A DNA stretch of 64,000 nucleotides from Crocinitomicaceae bacterium (GTDB lineage: Bacteria > Bacteroidota > Bacteroidia > Flavobacteriales_D > Crocinitomicaceae). The notes under the pieces are model-generated. The model was not told where the DNA came from. It made no database searches and saw nothing but the letters and a program-made list of their open reading frames with translations. The stretch lies in assembly GCA_021325675.1 (NCBI GenBank), contig JAJTCM010000001.1, forward strand, positions 310,001 through 374,000, written 5' to 3'. Below are positions 14,008 to 30,016 of this stretch, piece after piece (the stretch's first letter is position 1; every line of letters starts with the position of its first letter). A program made the position numbers and the translations under genes.

Positions 14008-14115
14008 ATGTAGAATGTAGAATTGAAAATGTAAAATCAAGAATTACCGCCCGGCAGAGAATCTTCAAATCTTCGTATTTCCTCCTGATAGCTATCAGGG
14101 ATCAATTCTCAATTT
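14008..14115. repeat. Intergenic repeat with REP-like palindrome
   Basis: The gap contains ATGTAGAATGTAGAATTG-type repeat text, the perfect palindrome CCTGATAGCTATCAGG at 14084-14099, and TCTCAATTTTTCAATTC. The palindrome is a variant of the CCCGATAGCTATCGGG element found twice near tRNA-Arg. Confidence 0.6.
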
Positions 14116-20556: not shown

Positions 20557-20563
20557 CCTTTTG

Positions 20564-20637
20564 TGACCCCATCAGGATTCGAACCTGAGACCTACTGCTT
20601 AGAAGGCAGTTGCTCTATCCAGCTGAGCTATGGGGCC
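20564..20637 (-). tRNA. tRNA-Arg(TCT)
   Basis: A 74-nt cloverleaf with acceptor GGCCCCA/TGGGGTC, D arm GCTC-AGCTGGATA-GAGC, anticodon loop CTTCTAA giving TCT, T-arm GTTCGAATC, and discriminator A. CCA is not fully encoded. Two truncated relatives of its 5' half lie just upstream (20638-20764). Confidence 0.95.
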
Positions 20638-20764
20638 TAAATATTCCCGATATGTGAGCAGTTGCTCTATCCTCCCGATAGCTATCGGGAGAGCTATGGG
20701 GCCTAAATATTCCCGATATGAGCAGTTACTCTATCCTCCCGATAGCTATCGGGAGAGCTATGGG
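20638..20764 (-). repeat. Two truncated tRNA-Arg 5' halves with palindromic D-loop insertions
   Basis: The 5' half of tRNA-Arg (acceptor strand, D arm, start of the anticodon arm) is repeated twice upstream, at about 20659-20701 and 20723-20764. In both copies the D-loop AGCT is replaced by TCCCGATAGCTATCGGGA (20673-20690 and 20737-20754), i.e. AGCT flanked by 7-nt inverted arms. The spacer TAAATATTCCCGATATG also repeats. The copies lack the anticodon and 3' half, so they are not tRNAs. Confidence 0.85.
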
Positions 20765-20798
20765 ACTGAGTATAAGCTTCAGTTTATACCAATAAAAA

Positions 20799-20822
20799 AG
20801 GGTACCGCTCGTGCGGTACCCT
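20799..20822 (-). terminator. Terminator of tRNA-Pro
   Basis: AGGGTACCGC / GCGGTACCCT stem of 10 bp with loop TCGT (ACGA on the minus strand), then a T-run on the minus strand. Its first base is the last A of the encoded CCA. Confidence 0.88.
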
Positions 20823-20899
20823 GGTCGGGGCGGCAGGATTCGAACCTGCGACCTCCTGGTCCCAAACCAGGCGCGATGACCGGACTACGCTACGCCCCG
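20822..20899 (-). tRNA. tRNA-Pro(TGG), CCA encoded
   Basis: A 78-nt gene including an encoded CCA end. Acceptor CGGGGCG/CGCCCCG, anticodon stem CCTGG/CCAGG with loop TTTGGGA giving TGG, T-arm GTTCGAATC, discriminator A. It is the only tRNA in the window that encodes the full CCA. Confidence 0.95.
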
Positions 20900-30000: not shown

Positions 30001-30016
30001 TCCCGATGTTTCGGGA
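30001..30016 (+). repeat. Hairpin TCCCGA-TGTT-TCGGGA in the tRNA-Asp leader
   Basis: Six-base inverted arms TCCCGA / TCGGGA, the same arms as in the palindrome near tRNA-Arg, between the promoter and the tRNA-Asp gene. Confidence 0.7.

Follow-up and report, generated by a model that had tools for sequence, protein, structure and literature searches.

The tRNA-Arg(TCT) gene in the stretch of Crocinitomicaceae DNA analysed here (64,000 nucleotides, hereafter the window) is preceded by two broken pieces of itself, and the question is where these pieces came from and why each of them contains a hairpin. The initial annotation had recognized two 5' parts of the gene upstream, each with its D-loop expanded to a palindrome, and both observations were confirmed. 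On the minus strand there are two tandem units of about 64 bp (20638-20703 and 20704-20767), each made up of tRNA nt 1-13, the 18-nt palindrome TCCCGATAGCTATCGGGA, tRNA nt 18-32 and a spacer of 18-20 nt (Table 1). The near copy of nt 1-13 matches the intact gene at 13/13 positions. In the window copies at this tRNA we found neither an ORF nor a clear remnant of one. We suggest, with a probability of roughly 0.78, that they are ORF-less remnants of a mobile element with a GIY-YIG nuclease gene, which inserts into tRNA genes and restores its target, and that they arose by homing, tandem spread and loss of the ORF. The reading as a scar or mobile element, one of several offered earlier, is thus strongly supported, except that the main part of the element is not the palindrome but a GIY-YIG gene, which splits tRNA genes and restores them. 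This gene could not be seen from the window because the copies there lack it.

Table 1. Coordinates of the tRNA-Arg(TCT) gene, the two displaced copies and the upstream neighbour in the window.
Feature	Position	Strand	Remark
Intact tRNA-Arg(TCT), target gene, read as restored	20563..20637	-	ARAGORN; RF00005 match
Near-copy spacer, displaced piece to intact tRNA, without ORF	20638..20657	-	
Near copy, displaced tRNA nt 18-32	20658..20672	-	BLAST 100%
Near copy, hairpin TCCCGATAGCTATCGGGA replacing D-loop nt 14-17	20673..20690	-	
Near copy, displaced tRNA nt 1-13	20691..20703	-	100% identity to intact gene
Far-copy spacer	20704..20721	-	
Far copy, displaced tRNA nt 18-32	20722..20736	-	BLAST 93%
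Far copy, same hairpin TCCCGATAGCTATCGGGA	20737..20754	-	
Far copy, displaced tRNA nt 1-13	20755..20767	-	11/13 identical, last 10 all identical
tRNA-Pro(TGG), upstream neighbour, anchor for empty-site comparison in relatives	20822..20899	-	

The same arrangement is common in other genomes. A scan of genome contigs with the pattern TAGCTCN{0,3}TCCCGATNNNNATCGGGA returned at least 120 stretches with at least 107 accession prefixes, where by our own estimate about two would be found by chance. The titles of 118 of these stretches indicate Bacteroidota, part of the group and genus names being ones that we take to belong to this phylum; one stretch is from a Candidatus Gracilibacteria (L054) and one is titled without a group (L079). 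CP012155.1 (L152), titled as a complete genome, is among them, and 11 palindromic copies stand at this one locus. The listed loci contain 154 matches in twelve isotypes, and for 132 of them (105 loci) an intact tRNA follows within 800 nt. The displaced first 13 nt equal those of the intact tRNA in 111 of these 132 and show one difference in 14, six of the 13 positions being fixed by the pattern. Among the 22 matches without a tRNA, 15 are no more than 800 nt away from where the available DNA ends. Because the pattern was built on the palindrome, pieces that lack it lie outside the reach of the scan. Plain tandem duplication by slippage, or an artefact of assembly, would account for the near-identity of the 64-bp units and for the arrays at other loci. 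However, the occurrence of the same structure in so many contig stretches and accession prefixes makes chance or an assembly error in a single genome unlikely, the hairpins and the nuclease genes described below would be left unexplained, and the empty site in a congener is precise. We give this explanation hardly any credence.

At the position of the near-copy spacer, the relatives with the arrangement of the window and a nuclease gene hold about 240-480 nt. There, an ORF of about 95 codons separates the intact tRNA from the displaced piece (L050, L062, L099, L124 and L144). The same ORF occurs in L108, where the tRNA lies beyond the stretch and was found in L164, and in broken form in L076 and L080. 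In L083 the spacer is short and only about the last 20 nuclease codons are left, which makes this short element, at least, the descendant of a long one. The element ORFs belong to the GIY-YIG nucleases: PF01541 matched the ORF of L050 with an E-value of 8.7e-14, and two ORFs of the source genome with 4e-12 (L187) and 3.4e-16 (L162). Y5, Y16, G18, R26, H30 and E64 are among the columns invariant in 13/13 aligned members, and we presume that they include the catalytic residues of this family. The Gracilibacteria locus is built in the same way, and TCCCGATTAAAATCGGGA takes the place of the anticodon arm. An island with a tRNA-targeting tyrosine integrase was considered as well and fits poorly; an integrase gene has a size of about 1 kb, for which the spacers of about 240-480 nt are too short.

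The 13-member nuclease alignment (A1) also provided a survey that was blind to the palindrome. At a cut-off of 1e-8 it had matches in 72 of the 118 sampled Bacteroidota genomes, and we examined 69 loci, 29 of which were fetched automatically (the one from the source genome was left out) and 40 taken down the match list; in the latter, neighbours in the same array and G111:C97:38802 were dropped, and the arrays G098:C34, G121:C2 and G153:C4 were taken early. A same-strand tRNA was found within 600 nt of the nuclease at 60 of the 69 loci and a tRNA on the opposite strand only at none, compared with an expectation, by our own estimate, of less than one in 69. With several loci per genome, the 60 represent 35 genomes and 13 families. 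Six of the nine loci without a tRNA (L266, L273, L283, L299, L308 and L314) lie no more than about 450 nt from the end of a contig, and L288, L306 and L322 have neither a tRNA within 600 nt nor a near contig end. L288 (G098:C34:5800-11000) holds eight tandem GIY-YIG genes with a period of about 365 bp and no intact tRNA within 600 nt.

A partial copy of the same tRNA was present at 56 of the 60 loci, the nearest piece always lying within 700 nt, while the controls gave 2 (reversed tRNA), 5 (opposite strand) and 4 (tRNA of another isotype) of 60. The piece was on the predicted side and from the predicted end in 51 of 56 cases. The nuclease stood downstream of the tRNA at 46 loci (type B), and 14 loci were of the type seen in the window (type A); altogether, fourteen isotypes were involved. 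With the general Pfam GIY-YIG model, which catches other GIY-YIG proteins as well, a tRNA was close by at 12 of 30 loci in eight genomes, and at none of the four loci of UvrC type (L163, L165, L179 and L186). In 28 of 60 cases the nearest nuclease relative in another host family was found at a tRNA of the same isotype, where permutations gave 4.7 (sd 2.6, maximum 16 in 5000; kinship above the family level is ignored), a pattern that fits lineages tracking one tRNA target across host families. In the Patescibacteria, which we take to be the phylum of L054, 57 of 78 genomes had a nuclease match. At 22 of the 29 loci examined there was a same-strand tRNA, and at none a tRNA on the opposite strand only; 16 loci had displaced pieces, several with hairpins, the tRNA controls having been run on the Bacteroidota set only.

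The anatomy of the element, its generality, the empty congener site and the partial deletion of the nuclease gene in a short element can be read from the sequences themselves. Judged by the tandem periods, a full element measures about 345-420 bp and encodes one GIY-YIG nuclease of about 80-100 aa on the strand of the tRNA. On the proposed reading it brings a copy of one end of its target gene, which leaves the tRNA intact after insertion and the host's own end displaced beyond the element. In type A it is the 5' part that lies displaced upstream, as in the window, and in type B the 3' part that lies downstream; an inverted repeat usually breaks the displaced piece, in its D-, anticodon-, variable- or T-arm. 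For its movement we infer cutting and repair. The nuclease would cut a tRNA gene free of the element, repair of the break would copy the element in, and the carried tRNA end would restore the gene, which amounts to homing. Copies would then multiply in tandem and lose the ORF, leaving remains like those in the window. As in a free-standing homing endonuclease gene, the nuclease lies beside its presumed target (60 of 69 loci) and element-free alleles occur in relatives. The restored tRNA should remain a target of the nuclease, which counts against the homing model and raises the question of how a cell survives a nuclease that targets an essential gene kept intact by the element. Free-standing GIY-YIG enzymes typically cut donor alleles inefficiently, according to a report on the phage enzyme SegB (PMC13096335), and by analogy inefficient cutting of the donor allele could explain survival with an intact target.

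Comparison of the tRNA-Pro/tRNA-Arg(TCT) site between relatives agrees with insertion of such an element. The orthologous site of the congener G001 is empty. In G003 the leader is that of G001 except for the length of a T-run, and after it come a displaced 5' piece, whose D-loop hairpin is identical, and a 24-nt spacer before the intact tRNA. Other relatives are in part empty at this site and in part carry different displaced pieces with hairpins in the D-loop or anticodon arm (L238, L239, L254, L255 and L011); L005 has a decayed piece without a hairpin. GIY-YIG ORFs stand just 3' of the same tRNA-Arg in G014 (L008) and G023 (L238), one of them broken by a contig end, and in another family a type A element with its ORF occupies tRNA-Arg(TCT) (L303). 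The source genome itself has nuclease-bearing type B elements at tRNA-Asn and tRNA-Phe. At the tRNA-Asn locus G003 has an element and G002 has none, and the G001 locus looks relic-like by eye. At the tRNA-Phe locus (L162/L191, C8), two different long AT-rich inverted repeats were seen by eye in the T-arm of the displaced 3' piece.

These sites also bear on the idea that the leader is a functional RNA, a mimic of the tRNA 5' half with a hairpin that regulates the processing or expression of tRNA-Arg. Type A pieces do lie upstream of the tRNA, and folding of the minus-strand leader, proposed earlier as a check, showed that its 133 nt are far more stable than shuffled sequences (MFE -60.7, z -6.2). 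However, by our reading of the structure this stability is mostly that of the two palindromes and is no proof of RNA function. Many relatives have no leader copy at the orthologous locus, type B pieces lie downstream of the tRNA, and hairpins adjoin even a piece that spans no more than nt 1-15 (L298), while isotype, copy number and hairpin sequence all vary. A functional leader therefore seems very unlikely to us. The regulatory decoy suggested in the initial annotation found no support and was dropped in view of the empty sites, the downstream pieces and the very short pieces adjoining hairpins; hairpins are also present in the nuclease-bearing versions.

The hairpin of the window is one case of a general pattern of hairpins in displaced pieces. 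In 45 distinct internal interruptions (36 loci), inverted-repeat arms of at least 5, 6 and 7 were found in 43, 38 and 29, respectively, where random windows from the same loci gave expectations of 7.2, 2.3 and 0.7. When whole pieces were considered, 71 of 84 had a hairpin inside or at the junction side, compared with 0.18 of random windows; the other 13 had none in the tested stretches, some having one just beyond the other side. The displaced 5' piece is continuous, with no interruption, in L169, L177 and L178. The hairpins differ in sequence (TCCCGA..TCGGGA, CCTGCCTGCCGGCAGGCAGG, TCCGCCTGCGGCGGA and others) and lie in the D-loop, the anticodon arm, the variable region or the T-arm, and insertions exactly at TTC/GA of the T-loop recur (L272, L310, L324 and L327). 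Because many different hairpins fill the same role, the palindrome of the window is not the defining feature of the element.

The role of the hairpin is the least certain part of the proposed mechanism, and here too we can only infer. Conserved in structure and variable in sequence, it is possibly the end of the element at the insertion point or a shield of the displaced piece against re-cutting; it might also be a favoured product of repair. Several other roles were considered and rejected or weakened. The arm used does not track the kinship of the nucleases (18 of 36 against 14.1, and 12 of 36 against 14.1 where the isotypes differ), so a simple mark of a nuclease-specific cut site is disfavoured. 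The L324 piece, with 70 continuous identical bases, weakens the idea that the hairpin blocks recombination between repeats, and hairpins beside pieces of 15-24 nt (L298 and L276) weaken the idea that it silences a tRNA-like RNA.

The palindrome of the window is nevertheless dispersed, as the initial annotation had supposed. Matches to CCCGATAGCTATCGGG with up to three mismatches number 3 in the window, where 0.17 would be expected, and 38 in the genome as a whole, where a reversed control gives 2; the two exact copies in the genome are both in the tRNA-Arg(TCT) leader. The pattern TCCCGATN4ATCGGGA was found in 70 of 296 genomes of the phylum, in up to 41 copies, and its reverse matched once, in a single genome. 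The exact D-loop palindrome pattern was restricted to one of these 296 evenly sampled genomes, the source genome. There, by eye, the palindrome also lies in the D-loop of tRNA pieces upstream of tRNA-Met (L015) and tRNA-Leu (L016), pieces that BLAST of the intact tRNA missed, and it occurs in a 3' piece of tRNA-Asn (L022). Two further palindromes of the window had been linked to this one earlier. That at 14084-14099 is indeed related (CCTGATAGCTATCAGG) but is intergenic and has no association with a tRNA. That in the tRNA-Asp leader at 30001-30016 (TCCCGATGTTTCGGGA) has the outer arm bases in common but a different centre and no partial copy of tRNA-Asp. The latter hairpin, which stands without a recognizable tRNA-Asp piece, could be a fully decayed element.

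A short palindrome dispersed above chance qualifies as a REP-like sequence, and it could be argued that an independent mobile repeat entered D-loops while the duplication of the tRNA was separate and incidental. REP elements go together with a RAYT transposase in the genome. Some copies of the palindrome do lie in terminators or in the loops of other hairpins; among 67 palindromes outside D-loop-like contexts, 8 are flanked by stems of at least 5, against 1.9 expected. One copy lies inside a GIY-YIG gene (L212). However, unrelated hairpins occupy equivalent positions in displaced pieces elsewhere, and nuclease genes stand beside tRNAs even in the survey that was blind to the palindrome. Moreover, the palindromic pieces are otherwise little altered (first 13 nt equal in 111 of 132, with 6 positions fixed by the pattern), so the hairpin seems to arrive early. 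We regard an independent repeat as improbable and prefer the tRNA-restoring nuclease element. What stands of the dispersed palindromic element of the initial annotation is the dispersal; the palindrome is one hairpin among several.

The dispersed short palindromes in these genomes may in part be by-products of the elements. Element and palindrome counts in 91 genomes are weakly linked (Spearman 0.38, P 0.0002, kinship ignored). Some dispersed copies are probably terminators and not remains of elements, since TCCCGAT hairpins followed by T-runs in L224, L225, L226, L228 and L230 resemble ordinary terminators. A palindrome that jumps into any hairpin loop was rejected, the excess outside D-loop-like contexts (8/67 against 1.9) being only mild. 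In L212 (G109, 1501-2324) the palindrome is inside a GIY-YIG reading frame that recurs three times in tandem, adjoining tRNA-Met. In Roseivirga sp. UBA6061 (L085, 4512-4600, minus strand) a tRNA-like gene, which ARAGORN calls tRNA-Lys with a shifted start, has the palindrome in its D-loop and otherwise appears complete; it may be functional, with a lengthened D-arm, or it may be a pseudogene.

Among known systems, SegB of phages T4 and T6 comes close. It is a free-standing GIY-YIG homing endonuclease (PMC13096335, PMC2988022) that is reported to cut inside tRNA genes at the site motif RAWTSGAAC and to drive tandem amplification of a tRNA region (PMC13096335). It shares with the elements a small GIY-YIG nuclease encoded among tRNA genes, and the complement of its motif, GTTCSAWTY, can be read as the T-loop, where several element hairpins interrupt at TTC/GA. 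In contrast, SegB lies between tRNA genes and does not split and restore one (PMC2988022, PMC13096335), and the word hairpin is absent from the main text of the 2026 SegB paper (PMC13096335). SegB is also phage-borne, whereas a search of 50,697 phage records at 1e-5 gave no match for the L050 ORF, and on this ground a phage origin was rejected.

The mORFs of fungal mitochondria resemble the elements in their layout. They are reported from atp6 of Allomyces and from atp6, atp9, cox2 and nad3 of Glomus, as elements with an endonuclease ORF and a replacement gene end, the native end being displaced beyond the ORF, and the atp9 mORF is of GIY-YIG type (PMC3630166). A replacement end together with a displaced native end is what we found here, 51 of 56 cases agreeing with the prediction for side and end. 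However, mORFs enter protein genes and replace the 3' end, whereas the present elements enter tRNA genes at either end. The ends inserted by mORFs are divergent, while here the displaced and intact parts are mostly identical outside the hairpins, so the carried end does not appear foreign; the main text on mORFs does not contain the word hairpin (PMC3630166). REP and other palindromic repeats of bacteria (PMC3733652) are similar to the window hairpin in being short dispersed palindromes, with end tags GTAG or CGTC, and differ from the many hairpin sequences that lie here in tRNA arms of displaced pieces beside a nuclease gene. Group I introns in tRNA genes (PMC3984707) illustrate that elements with homing endonucleases can enter such genes, but the present elements restore the tRNA gene in the DNA itself, so that it is uninterrupted and needs no splicing. 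A group I intron was rejected for the present loci, an intron-free ARAGORN search calling the tRNA at 60 of 69.

No description of the family was found in the titles and abstract beginnings of open-licence PMC papers, among the best 25 or fewer of up to 167 matches. An earlier description may exist in print, because subscription papers and preprints lay outside this search and long match lists were partly covered. We see about even odds that the tRNA-inserting GIY-YIG elements form a large and apparently undescribed class of mobile DNA, with one-gene elements at most tRNA isotypes of Bacteroidota and Patescibacteria, in which a carried half rebuilds the tRNA, which end in or deposit a hairpin in an arm of the displaced piece, and of which the dispersed palindromes may partly be by-products. 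If so, many genomes of these phyla would harbour selfish elements inside tRNA genes that are annotated only as tiny nucleases. Fragments of tRNA genes in tandem and unusual tRNA leaders would then be accounted for, perhaps along with some of the dispersed palindromes, and the elements would offer a natural set of nucleases seemingly tuned to particular tRNA isotypes.

Further traces are present in the source genome. The tmRNA gene (L172, 890-1290) is followed at a distance of about 200 nt by the start of a GIY-YIG ORF (C1:482919-483128, in a 141-codon frame). The gene for tmRNA may be a further target; inspection by eye showed no displaced piece of it at this locus. When the 32 tRNAs of this genome were compared by BLAST with their own flanks, blind to the palindrome and at an E-value of 0.05 or better, six had a match. 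Those of Arg(TCT), Asn, Phe and Ser(TGA) were clear, and those of Val and Cys were single 11-nt matches that may be due to chance. Two copies of nt 70-86 of tRNA-Ser(TGA) lie downstream of this gene (L206, C1:754500-757000) and are possibly type B remnants.
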